A DNA stretch of 64,000 nt. Origin: Bacteroidota bacterium (GTDB lineage: Bacteria; Bacteroidota; Bacteroidia; Chitinophagales; Chitinophagaceae). Where the stretch lies: positions 1 to 64,000 of the forward strand of contig CANFXV010000005.1 of NCBI GenBank assembly GCA_947451115.1, given 5' to 3'. The notes beneath the pieces are model-generated. The model saw only the letters and a list, made by a program, of their open reading frames with translations, made no database searches and was not told where the DNA came from. Position numbers and translations under genes: made by a program. Positions 5 to 32,617 of this stretch are shown here, one piece after another; within the stretch, counting starts at the first letter, position 1; every line of letters starts with the position of its first letter.

Positions 5-76
<72 letters not shown>

Positions 77-2869: not shown

Positions 2870-5275
2870 GTGGACAAGACATTTTTATTTAAGGGGGAGG
2901 AAGAAAACGAGTTTATACCTTTATTTTCTTTTAATGAACAAGAGGAGGAGAATGAGCCAGATTTGGTCATAGACGATCTATTGCCTATTCTGCCTTTGCG
3001 CAATACCGTATTATTTCCAGGGGTGGTGATTCCAATTACAGTGGGAAGAGACAAGAGCATTCAAGCGGTGAAAGCTGCCTATGCCAAAGACAAATTAATA
3101 GGGGTGCTTTCTCAAAAAGATGGCAATATTGAAGATCCTACACCGGCCGATTTATGTTCCATTGGCACCGTTGCAAAAATCATTAAGATGATTAAAATGC
3201 AAGACGGCGGCACCACCATCATCATTCAAGGTAAAAAAAGATTTGAGCTTTTGGCCATGAAAGAGGAAGATCCTTTTTTCAAAGCCAGTATCAAAATATT
3301 GGTAGAAGAAAAATTAGGCAAGGAGGATCAAAACTTTCAAGCCTATTTAGCCAACATCAAAGATTTAGCAACACAGATTATTCAGTTGTCGCCCAATTTC
3401 CCCTCAGAGGCGGCCATGATTTTAAAGAACATCGAGAATCCTGTTTTCTTAATCAATTTTGTGAGTAGCAATTTGAATGTGGAGATTCATGAGAAACAAG
3501 GTTTGCTCGAACAAAATAGTTTAAAACTAAGAGCCGAAAAATTAATTCAATTTCTACAACAAGAATTACAATTTGTAGAATTAAAAAATAAGGTAGCTAA
3601 TAAAACGCGCACTGAAATTGACAAGCAACAACGCGATTACTTTTTACAACAACAATTAAAAAGTATCAAGGATGAATTGGGTGGAGACCCCAATGAACGT
3701 GAAGTAGCCGAAATGAAAAAGAAAGCTGATGGCAAGAAATGGCCTGAGGCTGCCAAAAAATTATTTCAAAATGGTTTAGAGAAATTGGAGCGTATGCATC
3801 CAAGCACTCCCGATTATTCGGTGGTTTACAATCATTTGGATTTATTGTTAGATCTTCCTTGGGAAGAATATACGGCCGATAATTATGATTTAAAAAATGC
3901 CAAGAAAGTATTGGATGCGGATCATTACGGCATGGGTAAAATCAAAAATAGAATTTTAGAATATTTAGCCGTGCTTAAAATAAAAGGGGACATGAAAAGT
4001 CCTATTTTATGTTTTTTAGGCCCTCCAGGTATTGGTAAAACTTCTTTAGGAAAATCTATTGCACATGCCATTGGACGCAAATACATTCGCGTAAGCTTAG
4101 GCGGTTTGCATGACGAAAGTGAAATTAGAGGCCATCGTAAAACCTATATTGGCGCCATGCCTGGTAGAATTATTCAAAGCCTTAGAAAAATCAAAACCTC
4201 CAATCCTGTGATGATATTGGATGAGATTGATAAAATTGGCAGCGATCACAGAGGAGATCCTTCATCGGCTTTATTAGAAGTATTAGATCCAGAACAGAAT
4301 CATAGTTTTTATGATAATTATTTAGAATCAGAATACGATTTAAGCAAAACTTTATTCATTGCTACCGCTAATGACATTAGCCGCATTCAACCTGCTTTAA
4401 GAGATCGTTTAGAAATTATTGATTTAAGTGGTTATGCTGTTGAAGAAAAAGTTGAAATTGCCAAAAGACATTTATTGCCTAAACAAAGGTCCGCACATGG
4501 TTTAGAAAAAATAAACTTTAAAGTGTTGGACAATGTACTAGAAAAAGTAATTGAAGATTATACTAGAGAAAGTGGGGTGCGTGAATTGGATCGTCAGTTG
4601 GCCTCCATCATGCGCTATCAAGCCAAGGAATTGGCCTATAAAAATAAAGTAAAGCCTACGGTGACTAAATCTGATTTACATAAAATTTTAGGACAAGCCA
4701 GGTACAGCAATGAAATTTATAAAACAGTCAACATGCCTGGGGTTGCCGTTGGATTGGCTTGGACTTATGTAGGGGGTGATATTTTGTTTATTGAAGTATT
4801 GTTGGCCGATGGCAAAGGCGGTATGAAATTAACCGGCAATTTGGGTAATGTAATGAAAGAAAGTGCGGATACAGCTTTTACTTATTTGCAAAGTAATGCC
4901 AAAAAGATAGGAGTAGATTCAGCTTTGTTTACCACCAAATCGGTGCACATACATGTGCCAGAAGGAGCCGTACCCAAAGATGGTCCGAGTGCGGGCATCA
5001 CCATGCTTACTGCATTAGCCTCTGCTTTTACAGGTAGAAAAGTAAAACCTTATTTAGCCATGACCGGGGAAATTACTTTGCGTGGCCAAGTATTACCAGT
5101 AGGGGGCATTAAGGAAAAAATATTGGCTGCAAAAAGATCAGGCATGAAAGAAATTATTCTTTGCTGGCAAAACGAAAAGGACATCAACGAAATTGACCAT
5201 ACTTTTATCAAAGGGCTCAATTTTCATTATGTCAAAACCATGCAACAAGTGCTTGATTTGGCTTTGGTGGGTTAA
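2870..5275 (+). CDS. lon: ATP-dependent protease Lon
   Basis: Lon is a cytoplasmic AAA+ serine protease that degrades misfolded and regulatory proteins. Counting from the GTG at 2870 it has 801 residues. The N-terminal substrate-binding domain starts near [15 protein letters not shown], Walker A GPPGIGKT is at 384-391, Walker B ILDEID at 449-454, the catalytic Ser is in DGPSAG (Ser707) and the partner Lys in GGIKEK (near 748). The reading frame has no ATG until well inside the N-terminal domain, so the start must be non-ATG. Candidates are TTG at 2828, TTG at 2846 and GTG at 2870. I chose GTG because the following residues ([14 protein letters not shown]) resemble what I remember of Lon N-termini in this group. 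The function is certain; the start is not. Confidence 0.93.
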
Positions 5276-5292
5276 ATCCCTAGCTTTGTTTT

Positions 5293-6315
5293 ATGAGCAG
5301 GTATTTCATGCAAAAGCAAGTATTTTTTATTATTGGAGTAGTTTTATCTTCTTTTAGCTTAATGGCTCAAAATACAGGGGGCAATGCTACCTATAATTTT
5401 CTTACACTTCCTTACAGTGCCAAGGCTTCTGCATTGGGCGGTATGAACATTAGTTCCATGGGGAATGATCTTGGCTTGGCCATGTTCAATCCTTCTTTGT
5501 TGTCAGACAAAATGGATGGCGATATACATCTAAGCATTCGCCCTTATTATGCCAATATTCAGCAATACGATTTTAGTGGCGCCAAATTATGGACGAAAAA
5601 AAATTGGGTGATTGGCTGGGGCGTTCATTACATGGATTATGGTACCATTAAAATGACAGATGCAGCGGGTAATGAATTAGGCAATTTTAGACCAAACGAT
5701 TATGCTGCTCAAATTTCATTGGCTACCCATTACATTAAAAATGTACAATTAGGCACTAGTATTAAGTTTATTCAATCTAATTATGGGGTGTACAAATCCA
5801 ATGCATTGGCCATGGACATTGCGCTGCGTTATACTTCTTCCAATGAATTAAACCAAGCCAGTATTTTATTGAGCAATATTGGAGCGCAGTTAAAAACCTA
5901 TACGGTTAAAGAAGATTTACCTTTTAATTTAATCATAGGCTGGTCCAAAAAATTAGAAAAAGCGCCCATTCAATTTTCAGTGACTGCCCAAAGGTTATCT
6001 GTTTGGAACAATACTTACTATGATGCCAATTTTGCGAATCAAGAAGGCTATAAAACACCAGGTAGTTTACAAAATTTGTTCAACCATCTATTGCTGGGTA
6101 CAGAAGTTTATATGGGCAATCAAGTAAACCTTGATTTTGGCTATAATTTTATTCGCAGGTTTGATTTGAATATTGAAAATCAACAAAATTGGTTCAATGG
6201 TTTTAGCGCAGGGGTAGGTATAAAATTACCACGCACTAAAATACAATATGGGAATGCTTTTTTTCAAAGAAATTTGTACCATCATTTCTCTGTTTTTTAT
6301 TCATTCAAAAGATAG
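5293..6315 (+). CDS. porQ: Type IX secretion system protein PorQ
   Basis: PorQ is an outer-membrane beta-barrel protein of the PorV/UPF0164 type, part of the T9SS attachment complex that handles cargo at the cell surface. The 340-residue protein has a signal peptide ending near LMAQ, followed by the conserved N-terminal block with YNFLTLPYSAKASALGG and the motif FNPSLLSD, then alternating beta-strand segments to a C-terminal aromatic strand (HHFSVFYSFKR). The ATG at 5293 is taken; a second ATG at 5308 would also give a good signal peptide. It follows lon by 17 bases and converges on PBP1A with a 4-base gap. The assignment rests on family resemblance recognised by reading. Confidence 0.85.
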   Translation: MSRYFMQKQVFFIIGVVLSSFSLMAQNTGGNATYNFLTLPYSAKASALGGMNISSMGNDLGLAMFNPSLLSDKMDGDIHLSIRPYYANIQQYDFSGAKLWTKKNWVIGWGVHYMDYGTIKMTDAAGNELGNFRPNDYAAQISLATHYIKNVQLGTSIKFIQSNYGVYKSNALAMDIALRYTSSNELNQASILLSNIGAQLKTYTVKEDLPFNLIIGWSKKLEKAPIQFSVTAQRLSVWNNTYYDANFANQEGYKTPGSLQNLFNHLLLGTEVYMGNQVNLDFGYNFIRRFDLNIENQQNWFNGFSAGVGIKLPRTKIQYGNAFFQRNLYHHFSVFYSFKR

Positions 6316-8756: not shown

Positions 8757-11700
8757 TTATGGTTTGTAAATATTATCTAGCATAAACCTTTCGTATTTTT
8801 TTAAATCTGCTGGGCTCTTGATTAAAATAATATTTGATTTTCCTATTAGATACAATTCATATTGTTTTGTGGGTATAAAGGAGATGATTTCTTTACTAAG
8901 TCTGGGCTTTACTTTATTGATGTAGGTAAGTGCATTAGACCTATTGCCAAAGTAACCAATCCAAACGATGTAAGTTGTTTCATCAAATTGAACGTAAGTT
9001 ACGTTTAAATTTTGCTTTTTAAATTCATCAATGTTTAACAAATTCAATGCATTTTGCATTTCTTTCACAAAACTGCCACTTACTTTATTGGTCACGAGGG
9101 CAATGTAATGTTGCTCTAAACTATCATTTTCAAATTCAATAGCGGTTGCCAAGCTACTATCCAAGGCAACTTTTGTGCTAGGACTGCTGGTCTGCGCTTT
9201 GATGTTTAAAGTTGGAGCCTCTTTACTGATAATTTTTGGGCTGAGGCTGCTGGTTTGTGCTAGTGGGGTAATGGGTTGAATGATTAAATTAGGTTCCTCT
9301 TTAACTGAAACAAAAGGAAGTTCTTTGACTACTTTTTTTAATCTTAAAGTATCCAAATAAGTTTCTGTAGTTTTTCTATTATTAATTTCCGCTAAAATAG
9401 TTTTTGCCTTGTCTTTTATTCTTTCACTTTTATAGGTGTTGATGATGGTATCTAATAGTTTAATGGCCAAACTATCTTTGCGTTCTTGTGCATACATTTT
9501 GACTTTTAAAAATTGGAAGGGGACCATCCATTTGCTTCCTCTTAAATTGGTGTTCAATTTTGGAATGGCATTGGAAAATGCTTCCCAATTGCCAATCTGT
9601 GTATAAAAATAGGCCTCTTTATAATTGTCCACCAAGGCATTGTCTTTATTTTTTTTATCTTCGGCTTCCGCTTTTTTAGTTACATAAAATCCTTTTGGAA
9701 ATTGTTTCAAAATAACTTGAATTAGACTGTCGGAAGTGGCTGCTTGACCATCGTGCAAATACTGACTTGCTAAATCTAGCATGGCTCTTTCAGTAACTAC
9801 TGGGTCAATGTTCTTTTTTATAATTTTAAGATAGATAGGCAAAGCCTTTTCAAAATCATTTAATTGCAATAAAAACAATTGTGCATTGGCCAAGGCAGCC
9901 TTGTTCCATTCTGTCATCGAACTAGACAAGGAAATCGCATCTTTGATTAATACAATGGGTAAGCTGTCATTTTCTTTAGTGCTATTGCCCATATTTAATG
10001 GGTTTCCATTGGGATTGGGGTTGCCTTGTATATTTTGGTTCACATATTGATTGGCAGCAGGCTTATCGTTTTTATTGCTGGCATAGGCAATGGCCGGGCT
10101 GGTTTTTCTTCTCCACTCGTCAACATTGGGCCTTTCTCCCCATTTTTTTATAAAATTATTTTTCCCTAGTTGTACGGTACTTTTATTGTCAAAATAAAAA
10201 TCAGTATTGGATGAATTACTATTGTTATAGCTATTCAATAAGGCTGCATTGATATTATTGTCAGGTGCATAGTCCTTGGCTGATACATTGGCTTTGTCTA
10301 CAAATAAATTCTTTTGTGCTAATTGTGTCTGTTGTAATCTTTTTTGCCAATCAGCAGCAAATGTTTCTTGACGATCAGGATTTAAATCATAAATGAATTG
10401 TAAGGTATCTTGCCTTTGAATGATTTTGTCATTTTTTTCAATGGCCGACATCCATTTTTTTCTTAATTGTATGTTTTCGTAATTCGGGTTGGTTTTTAAT
10501 ACACTAGCTATACTATCATAAGCAATTCTTGAAATAGTATACTGGTCAATATTATAATTGATGTTGGCCAAGAGTTCAAAGGCTTTTGCTTTTTGTTTTA
10601 AACTATTATTGTTTTTCTTAATTGAATAGATAAGCCAATCCGTTGCTCTGTCATAGGCTTTGTTTTGTAGGGCTAATTTGGCCATTTCAAAATAAATGAT
10701 GTCAGTATAAGGTTTGTACTTTTCGCGTTTGCACATTTTTTCTAAAGAATAGGCCAAGTCCAACCATGGGGTATTGGCATTTTTAGAATCAATAGTGATC
10801 ATGGCAATTTTAGCATAGACCCCTACAATAGGGTTGGTGGCATATTGGTTGGCTTTTTTATACCAGGTATAGGCTTTTTGCCAGTTTTCGGCTTTTTGCC
10901 ATAATTGAGCAATCAAATAATACCATCTAGTTTTAGCAGCATCATCAAGGGCATTGGGCAATCCATTTTCAAGAGCCGCTGCGGCTTTATCATTCACTTC
11001 CATTAAATAGTATCCATAGGCCATTTGTTCATTCAAAAAAGGAAGCAAATTTTTAGGAAATAAGGCATCAGATTGAAGTAATTGTAATAAGCTCATGCCT
11101 TCGTTTAAAGCGCCAGTTTCAAAATAGTTCCTAGCTTGCCAAACCATGCTCTCATTTCGTACATTTTTATTTTCCCACAAGCGATTGTTTTCGGCAGTGG
11201 CAATACTAAATTTGCCTTTGGTGTTCCTTAAATTACTTCCAACAAGTAAATCTGCACCATTCTCTTTTTCATCAAATGAATAATTGATGAATTGTAAAAT
11301 ACTTCCTGCTGTGTCAAAATTTTTATGAAACAAATAAACTTTGGCCAATAATAAATAGGCATCATCAACATAATTACTCCTTAGGTCATGCAAAACGATG
11401 TTGGCATTACAACGATACACCATGGAATCTAAATTGTGCTTTGCCGTGGTGCTTAAATCGTAGTCGTAAAAACTTAGTAAACTAGTAAAATCATCTTGGT
11501 AATCTGTACGTGCCTTTTGTAAATTCTCATTAAATTCTTCTTCTGCATTAAATAAATAATTAAACTGAGAGACAGTATTTTGATAAGCCCTTCTACCCAA
11601 TGAATATTTTGTATTTAAAAGTCGCTCATAGGGAAGGGGTCTTTCCACTTCTCTAAAAACGCCTTTTTTAAGGGTGCTACTAACCGCACTGTCGGCCTTG

Positions 11701-30377: not shown

Positions 30378-31418
30378 ATGTCAGTTTTACACAATCGCAT
30401 CTCCAATAAGGAGTTGAAAGAAAAATTATACGAGGAAAATTTTCCGCGTACCACCATCAGTTTTTATCAGTATTTCACCATTCAAGACCCAGCCTTATTT
30501 AGAGATGAGTTGTATAAGGGTTTTCATGAATTACAAGTTTTTGGGCGTATTTATATTGCCAGTGAAGGCATCAATGCACAAATAAGTGTGCCTACTCATT
30601 TATTCGAAAACTTTAAATCTTATTTATATGTAATCCCTGGCCTAGAAGGCTTGAGGTTAAATATTGCGGTGAACGATAATGGCAAAAGCTTTTGGGTATT
30701 ACGCATTAAAAACAGAAGCAAAATTGTGGCCGATGGCATCGAAGATTCTAGCTTTAGTATGGAAAATAAAGGCAAGTATGTCAATGCCGTTCAGATGAAT
30801 GAATTGTTAAACGCTCCTGAAACGATTGTGATTGACATGCGTAACCATTATGAATACGAAGTAGGACATTTTGCAAATGCGATTGAAATTCCTTCAGATA
30901 CTTTTAGAGAACAATTGCCCATGGCCGCCGAGATGATGAAGGAAAATAAAGAAAAAAATATCATCATGTATTGCACGGGGGGTATCCGTTGTGAAAAAGC
31001 AAGTGCTTATATGTTGCATGAAGGGTTTAAAAATGTTTTCCATTTAGAAGGAGGTATTATTAATTACGCCAATCAAATTAAAGAAGCGGGATTAGAAAGT
31101 AAATTCAAAGGAAAAAACTTTGTGTTTGATGATCGACTAGGAGAGAAGATTACAGAAGACATCATTGCCAAGTGTCATCAGTGTGGGGCACCATGTGATA
31201 CCCATACCAATTGTAAAAACGATGGTTGTCACTTGTTGTTTATTCAATGTCCAAGCTGCGCTGAAACCTATGCCGGCTGCTGCACACAGGACTGCACCGA
31301 TATTGTACATCTACCTCTAGAAAAACAAATTGAGCTTAGAAAAGGCATCGACAAAGGCCAACAAATTTTTAATAAAAGCAAGCAGCGCTTAAGACCTCGC
31401 TTAGGAATAGATATTTAA
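30378..31418 (+). CDS. trhO: tRNA uridine(34) hydroxylase TrhO, rhodanese-domain protein
   Basis: A 346-residue member of the YceA/TrhO family, which hydroxylates uridine 34 of tRNA with oxygen to give 5-hydroxyuridine. An N-terminal domain ([18 protein letters not shown]..., [12 protein letters not shown]) precedes a rhodanese domain with Cys199 in [12 protein letters not shown] and HLEGGI. The C-terminal part is Cys-rich ([33 protein letters not shown]), probably zinc-binding; this extension is characteristic of long TrhO forms. Function from family. Its 3' end points toward the hairpin-rich region. Confidence 0.93.
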
Positions 31419-31470
31419 GATAGAATATCAATTTAAAAATATTTCATTCTTCTCTGCTCGCCATGACGCT

Positions 31471-31553
31471 AAAAAAATAAAAAAGAATCTAAAATTGTGA
31501 ACTCGCTTCGCTCAGACATGCACAATTTTTTAACGATTCATTTTTATTTTTTC
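31471..31553. repeat. Long imperfect inverted repeat (hairpin A) of the 31.5 kb intergenic stretch
   Basis: The outer arms 31471-31490 and 31535-31553 are AT-rich approximate reverse complements. Inner arms AAAATTGTG (31491-31499) and CACAATTTTT (31521-31530) pair perfectly over 9 bases, around a GC-richer loop (31500-31520) containing ACTCGCTTCGCTCAG. The stretch lies between convergent trhO and purC. Confidence 0.65.
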
Positions 31554-31561
31554 TTTACGTA

Positions 31562-31578
31562 GCAAATCTCTGATTTGC
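31562..31578. repeat. Short hairpin B (GCAAATC/GATTTGC)
   Basis: GCAAATC (31562-31568) and GATTTGC (31572-31578) pair perfectly around TCT. It lies directly after hairpin A. Confidence 0.7.
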
Positions 31579-31594
31579 ATAAAATAATTAGATT

Positions 31595-31638
31595 TTATTA
31601 TTTAAAAACTTAATATAATTATAGTTTTTAAATAATAA
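31595..31638. repeat. Perfect 16-bp AT-rich inverted repeat (hairpin C)
   Basis: The arm 31595-31610 (TTATTATTTAAAAACT) and the arm 31623-31638 are exact reverse complements with a 12-base loop. It is followed by two smaller hairpins: AGTTC/GAACT near 31650 and GAAATT/AATTTC at 31661-31680. Confidence 0.8.
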
Positions 31639-31690
31639 TTTAGTCTCGAAGTTCAGAACTGAAATTAATTTTTAAATTTCTATTCTAAAA

Positions 31691-32617
31691 CTAACTAAGC
31701 TTTTCTAAAGATACACAAACTAAATTGTAAGTTTCTTCGGAAGATTTTGGTGCTGGCTTAAATGGCGCGCCAATGACTTTTTCGTAAAGCTCAATATATC
31801 TTTTAGAAATGGTATCAATCCATTCGGCGGACATAGCTGGCACCGTTTGGCCTTCCTTGCCCATGAAATTATTGGCAATCAACCACTCGCGCACAAACTC
31901 TTTACTTAATTGTTTTTGCTTTTCTTTTTTGGATTGTCTTTCTTCAAATCCATCGGCATAAAAATATCGAGAAGAATCGGGGGTGTGTATTTCATCCATT
32001 AAATAAATGGTGTCTCCAATTTTTCCAAATTCATATTTAGTGTCTACTAAAATTAATCCTTGTTTAGCGGCTATTTCTTTTCCTCTTTGAAATAAGGCTA
32101 GTGCATATTTTTCTAATACAGCCCAATCCGCAGCAGAAGCCAATCCTTCTGCAATGATTTCTTCTTTTGAAATATCTTCATCATGTCCTTCACTTGCTTT
32201 AGTCGAGGGTGTGATGATTGGGCTAGGGAAATAATCATTTTCATTCAGTCCTTCTGGTAGGCTTACCCCACATAATTTTCGTCCACCTGCTTGGTAAGTT
32301 CTCCAAGCATGGCCCACTAAATTACCTCTTACGACCATTTCGATTTTAAAGGGAGTACATTTTTTGCCAATGGCCACATTTGGGGCAGGGCAGTCCAATA
32401 GCCAATTGGGGCAAATGTCCTGGGTAGCGGCCAACATATAGGCAGCAATCTGATTGAGGACCTGCCCTTTAAAAGGGATGGGTTCGGGTAAAATGACGTC
32501 AAAAGCAGAGATTCTGTCACTTGCAATCATTATAAGTAGTTCATTATCAAGATAATAGACATCTCTTACCTTGCCTTGGTACTCACCAATTTGATGGGGA
32601 AATGGGGTCATTTTCAT
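31691..32617 (-). CDS. purC: Phosphoribosylaminoimidazole-succinocarboxamide synthase
   Basis: SAICAR synthase of purine synthesis, joining CAIR and aspartate with ATP. The 308-residue protein has the N-terminal [27 protein letters not shown] block, GNLVGHAW and the signature [11 protein letters not shown] near residue 190. Length is that of the longer, yeast/Bacteroidota-like form and not the 237-residue E. coli form. The start could be the ATG at 32617 or the second Met at 32611. A TATCTTTA element lies upstream on the same strand. It is divergent from the TonB receptor gene. Confidence 0.95.

Follow-up and report, generated by a model that had tools for sequence, protein, structure and literature searches.

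The stretch of DNA analysed here (the window, 64,000 nucleotides) contains a highly structured element in the 272-base space between the convergent genes trhO and purC. trhO (30378-31418, plus strand) is a 346-aa ORF that matches the NCBIfam model NF001133 (TrhO) above its cut-off, and purC (31691-32617, minus strand) is a 308-aa ORF that matches NF009251 (SAICAR synthase), likewise above its cut-off. Both strands of the intergenic region fold more stably than their dinucleotide shuffles, with free energies of -59.5 kcal/mol on the plus strand (z -7.2) and -64.9 kcal/mol on the minus strand (z -6.1), and on neither strand was any of 200 shuffles as good. The initial annotation described five hairpins in a row; the hairpins are real, and the long imperfect arms, the GCAAATC/GATTTGC pair and the perfect 16-bp pair all lie where it placed them, but they are not five independent structures. 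Since 31421-31440 pairs with 31668-31687 (90% complementary) in the folds of both strands, 31421-31687 as a whole is predicted to form one branched structure, in which an outer stem closes off three parts: a rod of 119 nt, a small hairpin and an AT hairpin of 16 bp. The AGTTC/GAACT and GAAATT/AATTTC arms previously listed as two further hairpins are present, but belong to the right arm of the closing stem.

All parts of the element are assigned to the minus strand, the probable functional strand. Its 5' end on this strand is the right end of the element (31643-31687), which consists of GTCTCGAAGTTCAGAAC and the right arm of the outer stem, and corresponds by comparison with orthologues to the continuation of their copies beyond an extra two-hairpin domain (31560-31642). 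The conserved rod core (31441-31559) follows, and the 20-nt left arm of the outer closing stem (31421-31440) forms the 3' arm. The core is delimited as a 119-nt repeat unit by BLAST, as well as by the covariance model R1 and covariation in the family, with R1 matching the window at 31447-31574 on the minus strand (114.8 bits). It comprises GCGUUAAG/UAGC-type internal loops, an inner stem and the apical loop of the rod, GCAUGUCUGAGC-GAA-GCGAGUUC, which is the complement of 31499-31521. Its arms at 31472-31489 and 31535-31552 are 94% complementary, and the inner arm (31491-31499/31521-31529) is a perfect 9 bp.

The extra domain distinguishes the window copy from its orthologues in two genomes, G018 and G029 (loci L043/L044), which have a few bases in its place. 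Hairpin 1 (31562-31578; arms 31562-31568/31572-31578) reads GCAAATC-AGA-GATTTGC on the functional strand, and hairpin 2 (31595-31638; arms 31595-31610/31623-31638) is a perfect 16-bp AT-rich stem. A CAAATC..GATTTG hairpin together with a long AT hairpin also occurs in L276, L280, L288 and L087, where the long hairpin differs in its letters yet still pairs, with one mismatch in L288. Given the same architecture in these four other copies, the two hairpins constitute a peripheral domain of a long variant of the element. The short hairpin pattern alone is found in 22 of the 81 genomes of the same genus, mostly apart from the element.

The element appears to represent an undescribed family of structured repeats, located between converging genes of freshwater Sediminibacterium-type bacteria, that retains its shape while its letters change; given this, it probably does something. 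A second copy in the same genome (C3:76217-76350, model coordinates) was recovered by both BLAST and the covariance model, and many further BLAST matches over 31441-31559 were present among the matches listed for 60 genomes, its own included. The earlier suggestion of a repeat element is thereby borne out, with two copies in the genome and a family across the genus. Numerous intergenic copies of the loop had been proposed as the sign of a REP-like family, but only two exact copies of the loop are present in the genome. From 40 regions with better BLAST matches, 34 held 39 copies that were aligned with the window copy. The apical loop, two internal loops of one type and a constant outer part are conserved in this alignment, and the stems vary; the outer arms are inverted repeats, but locus-specific. 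R1 matches 33 of the 81 same-genus genomes (E<=0.01; 26 strong, with best E<=1e-15, and 7 weak), at 0-7 copies each, and 48 have no match. On the similarity of flanking proteins, the window copy and 37 others can be grouped into 10 places, of which seven recur in two or more genomes. Copies at one place in different genomes are on average 0.85 identical (76 pairs), and those at different places in one genome 0.76 (53 pairs). No description of the family was found in the literature searched by motif letters and by topic, which covered few subscription papers; the topic searches returned work on REP/ERIC repeats and structured RNAs as the only related material. Pairs of elements in opposite orientation, approximately 200 bp apart, are seen at three places (one shared by L062, L064 and L074, the others L065 and L050), with their functional strands pointing away from each other. 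Two contigs titled Comamonas (L087 and L128) bear Sediminibacterium-type elements, and the MAG record may hold misbinned contigs; they were grouped with Bacteroidetes in the strand count and with 'other' in the context count, and were left out of the pairing count for the apical motif (all below).

Comparison of orthologous loci provides a history of the trhO-purC insertion. Among six genomes, a 113-nt core has an identity of 90-96%, and across the six orthologous loci the identity of trhO DNA is 74-86%, that of purC DNA 78-85% and that of trhO third positions 49-68%. Because identity of the core exceeds that of the flanking coding DNA, an old shared insertion is under purifying selection here, unless the element has been repeatedly re-inserted. 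Four genomes carry the element in the window orientation (G018, G029, G033 and G007), and two have it inverted (G012 and G004). In G016, the flanks are as in G004, the core is lost and a short remnant is left; this locus (L082; G016:C76) resembles a natural deletion of the element, with a 14-bp palindrome remaining. The spacers of five element-free relatives (G006, G015, G027, G005 and G024) are 13-74 bp. A scan for hairpin-plus-T terminators (both strands) identified them in two of these five (G015 and G027), in none of the seven element-bearing spacers and not in the remnant. The scan agrees with the original observation that no GC-stem/T-tract terminator is visible between trhO and purC in the window. 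Replacement of a terminator by the element at this locus is weakly supported, since the same scan found no terminator in three of the five element-free spacers either.

Compensatory change in the family supports a conserved fold, as sought for structured non-coding RNAs. In an alignment of 37 copies (leaving out the window copy, L049 and L071), the consensus structure has 39 pairs, with standard pairs in 94.5% of cells compared with 76.6% after shuffling, and both sides have changed in 22 of the 39. The covariation score is 0.450, compared with 0.139 for shuffled alignments and at most 0.095 for slid structures; the shuffles ignore relatedness, which the slid controls retain, although these are biased towards a structure that was built from the very sequences compared. 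An absence of arm covariation among relatives had been named beforehand as part of what would refute the initial interpretation; the arms do covary. There is strong support for selection acting on a single-strand fold. The structure derived from the plus strand contains 22 A.C cells versus 4 G.U cells, A.C on the plus strand being equivalent to G.U on the minus strand; for the structure derived from the minus strand, the corresponding counts are 121 versus 11, with 73 of the 121 arising from two near-invariant columns. In addition, of 47 Bacteroidetes copies examined, the 43 with z<-3 all fold better as the motif strand than as its complement, and so do 13 of 15 such copies elsewhere (33 examined). 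The A.C excess on the plus strand and the better folding of the motif strand together indicate that the selected single strand is the minus strand of the window. Tolerance of G.U is best fitted by RNA, with single-stranded DNA also possible.

Elements of the family are found almost exclusively where genes converge. Convergent neighbours flank 32 of the 33 copies with both neighbours called; in the context set of 39 copies, one other has a short ORF on the same strand behind it, for six the gene on one side was not called, and the 33 callable copies share about ten places. By comparison, 10 of 51 neighbouring ORF pairs in the window are convergent, and 2 of 18 at gaps of at least 100 bases. A terminator scan of 33 element-bearing loci identified a GC-rich stem with a T run inside the element at none of them and an ordinary terminator outside it at 10. 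The second copy in the genome sits between an aspartate kinase gene and queA, with an intact terminator between the element and queA; in three element-free relatives, this spacer contains an ordinary terminator only. At L050, two terminators flank a pair of elements. Given these terminators, the functional strand may go untranscribed by the neighbouring gene at the queA copy and at L050. The element may take a terminator's place at some loci without being simply one. A scan with a promoter consensus found no promoter-like match upstream of any of 37 elements, at a low sensitivity (matches for 1 of 42 genes).

Comparison with known families did not place the element in any of them. No Rfam 15 family matched it at gathering score in the window or at the element loci, and all matches touching an element were far below it, as with one in the window at 20.6 bits against a gathering score of 60.8. 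Sub-threshold matches to emrB-Lactobacillus (window), MIR7504 (L064 and L094) and IsrM (L195) were rejected as chance, and a match to DUF805b in L240 (32.3 of 35.6 bits) lies outside the array of elements there. The Rfam search also recovered a tRNA gene (RF00005) at the start of the window (5-76). Skipping-rope RNA is a hairpin-like bacterial RNA of unknown function. This RNA (RF02924) resembles the element in being hairpin-like; it was rejected on finding no match in 38 genomes, a weak test as the control also matched nowhere, and none in a cmscan of the element loci. Integron attC sites, raised by clusters in the genomes G340 and G312, were set aside given that the clustered copies stand in tandem or between ordinary genes and do not fit the attC core-site pattern. 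No match was obtained in a plasmid search with the G312 unit or a phage search with the window core.

Among dispersed repeats, REP/BIME elements of the GTAG and CGTC superfamilies are described as 20-40 bp palindromes with 5-13 bp stems and an end tag, which are intergenic, often dimeric, and mostly located between convergent or unidirectional genes (PMC3733652). The REP-type likeness noted initially thus concerns intergenic palindromes, frequent dimers and gene neighbourhood, and extends no further: the element is a branched rod of 130-270 nt with internal loops and no constant tag. Membership of the REP/RAYT group was rejected on the basis of the 119-140 nt core, the lack of an invariant GTAG/CGTC and a search in which RAYT (Y1_Tnp; PF01797) was not found in the 26 strong-element genomes; RAYT is found in 17 of the 81 genomes, including 4 of the 7 with weak hits. 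A TnpB- or reverse transcriptase-linked repeat was likewise discounted, with TnpB (PF07282) in none of the 26 strong-element genomes (1 of 81 overall) and reverse transcriptase (PF00078) also in none (9 of 81 overall; 2 of the 7 weak-hit genomes). Many of the 81 genomes are incomplete and the strong-element genomes are small, such that absence of a gene is not proof. ERIC/RU-1 and RU-2 are palindromic as well. They are described as small mobile sequences of enterobacteria with units of 127 and 168 bp (PMC2229807; PMC2759123). Compared by those descriptions, they share MITE-like occurrence in several intergenic copies with the element, but are enterobacterial, whereas the element family occurs in Chitinophagaceae and exhibits conserved internal loops and compensatory change. 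HMP2_4205 and other palindromic structured-RNA candidates from human microbiomes are reported to be approximately 80-132 bp and mostly from Bacteroidetes, with 230 of 250 in the palindromic set predicted to form terminators (PMC8040213). By these descriptions, they resemble the element as palindromic structured-RNA candidates of mostly Bacteroidetes origin, and differ in that most are predicted terminators.

Weaker relatives extend beyond the genus. Of 296 genomes across the phylum, a further 19 have weaker R1 matches, and G120, from another genus of the family, contains eight near-identical copies. Tandem arrays of weaker relatives occur at L240, L241 and L244, and others lie beside a duplicated ORF at L243; by genome, tandem arrays are present in G312, and copies flank a duplicated ORF in G340. 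The L240 array (3277-5291) comprises six related elements, the last partial, downstream of ORFs that by eye are RHS-repeat-like, and that of L241 (2075-3746) comprises five between two convergent genes. At L243, a 449-aa ORF occurs twice (4301-6180 and 9095-10987), each time with same-strand element copies on both sides; the two ORFs have the same length and share their first 60 and last 15 residues, as if duplicated by recombination between elements. Of 26 weaker-scoring copies chosen from 57, 8 come from the genus itself, in its weak-hit genomes. A hairpin lies immediately downstream in 24 of the 26 (control windows, 20 of 78), and in 19 there are in addition complementary loops that would suit an H-type pseudoknot (controls, 4 of 78); no such trailer was seen by eye in 12 strong copies inspected.

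The apical motif, GCATGTYTGAGC-N3..7-GCGAGTTC, matched at least 80 stretches. Among the matches listed, at least six pairs stand directly beside the motif at 15 of 34 places outside the Sediminibacterium-type set, compared with a shuffle expectation of 1.7 (maximum 6 in 1000 shuffles); the 34 include Dyadobacter, Muribaculaceae, an archaeal MAG and one viral contig, and retain near-identical copies from one genome. The 15 paired places are in records titled Proteobacteria and Firmicutes, and chance matches are also among the 34. Some Proteobacteria and Firmicutes genomes have several copies among the matches listed. In the same matches, Bacteroidetes places are convergent in 30 of the 33 with both neighbours called, a set that partly overlaps the 39-copy context set, and places outside Bacteroidetes in 7 of the 19 non-genic cases with both neighbours called; 9 further matches outside Bacteroidetes lie inside ORFs. 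It is conceivable, though doubtful, that the element exemplifies an undescribed class of structured RNA that spans phyla, is copied in many genomes and owes its conservation to use by a widespread host protein. Such a class would be defined jointly by a repeated GCGUUAAG/UAGC internal loop, the loop UGUYUGAGC/GCGAGUU, which we take to be kink-turn-like, with a GNA-type cap, and a 3' H-type pseudoknot in the weaker-scoring relatives.

The preferred explanation, with a probability of roughly 0.4, is that the element is dispersed and structurally constrained and acts as a folded single strand, most likely an RNA of the minus strand, whose tail protects or insulates converging transcript ends. The window minus strand would be read as RNA and fold into a rod in which internal loops recur and the apical loop is conserved, and to which the window copy would add two hairpins at a junction. 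As the element sits where genes converge, it could be included, whichever way it faces, in the 3' tail of one or the other mRNA, and the folded tail could then protect or insulate the transcript ends, probably through a protein that recognizes the conserved loops. The family itself, its fold, strand, location, conservation, inversion and loss are directly supported by the comparisons above. A non-coding RNA is a possible reading on these sequences, presupposing transcription, and the proposed RNA nature and action on converging transcript ends are weakened by loci at which a terminator separates the element from its neighbour. Counting against this reading are the unfixed orientation at trhO-purC (inverted in G012 and G004), the ordinary terminators outside the element at 10 of 33 loci, the lack of a promoter-like match upstream in the insensitive scan, and the occurrence of the apical motif outside Bacteroidetes at sites not confined to convergent genes.

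The main rival, itself rather unlikely, is a non-autonomous mobile repeat of MITE/REP-like type, whose minus strand would serve as a single-stranded DNA hairpin for a recombinase encoded elsewhere, and which would survive between convergent genes since insertion there does little harm, being mostly vertically inherited now in strong-element genomes. The near-identical copies of G120, the arrays of G312, the ORF-flanking copies of G340 and the multiple copies listed for some Proteobacteria and Firmicutes genomes would all be explained in this way, as would the absence of an ORF from the element, the in-place inversion and deletion at trhO-purC, the position beside intact terminators and the presence of RAYT in 4 of 7 weak-hit genomes of the genus. 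Moreover, G.T pairs, too, are better tolerated than A.C pairs in DNA. Against this reading stand a core whose conservation exceeds that of the coding DNA beside it at a long-shared locus, a peripheral domain that still pairs with different letters, and the searches for RAYT, TnpB and reverse transcriptase, the three families covered, none of which was found in the 26 strong-element genomes (a set outside which G120, G312 and G340 fall). An independent trans-acting small RNA gene, expressed from its own promoter at several loci, is improbable: it would account for conserved loops amid variable stems, for elements behind terminators and for orientation-independence, but leaves the restriction to convergent sites unexplained, and sits poorly with the 48 genus genomes lacking a match and, as a weak test, the promoter scan. 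Still harder to sustain is a plain bidirectional transcription terminator of AT-rich hairpins, despite the convergent sites, a plus-strand T run that follows the inner stem and the hairpin terminators at the same place in two of five element-free relatives, as termination needs neither invariant loops nor strand bias, no GC-stem/T-tract terminator lies within the element at 33 loci and ordinary ones coexist with it at 10. A DNA-level site, whether a cruciform or protein-binding site relieving supercoils between converging genes, is very improbable; a long palindrome between convergent genes would suit it, but a cruciform folds both strands equally, whereas wobble is tolerated on one strand only.

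Hairpin repeats of large size between genes tend to be written off as junk or as terminators. The folded minus-strand RNA favoured here and its single-stranded DNA rival can be set against each other in this element, given that it is more conserved than neighbouring genes, keeps its pairs through compensatory changes, with wobble tolerated on one strand only, and has been flipped in place; it therefore offers a testable case in which to decide between RNA and single-stranded DNA as the form in which such repeats work. Hairpins in three phyla carry one and the same apical motif, and no Rfam model attains its cut-off, which suggests that bacterial structured elements are incompletely catalogued. 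A further variant is seen at L194, where two near-identical copies (2955-3132 and 4081-4258) lie approximately 1.1 kb apart; these have the same double internal loop with a different tip, and each is preceded by another palindrome, by eye of the CGTC type.
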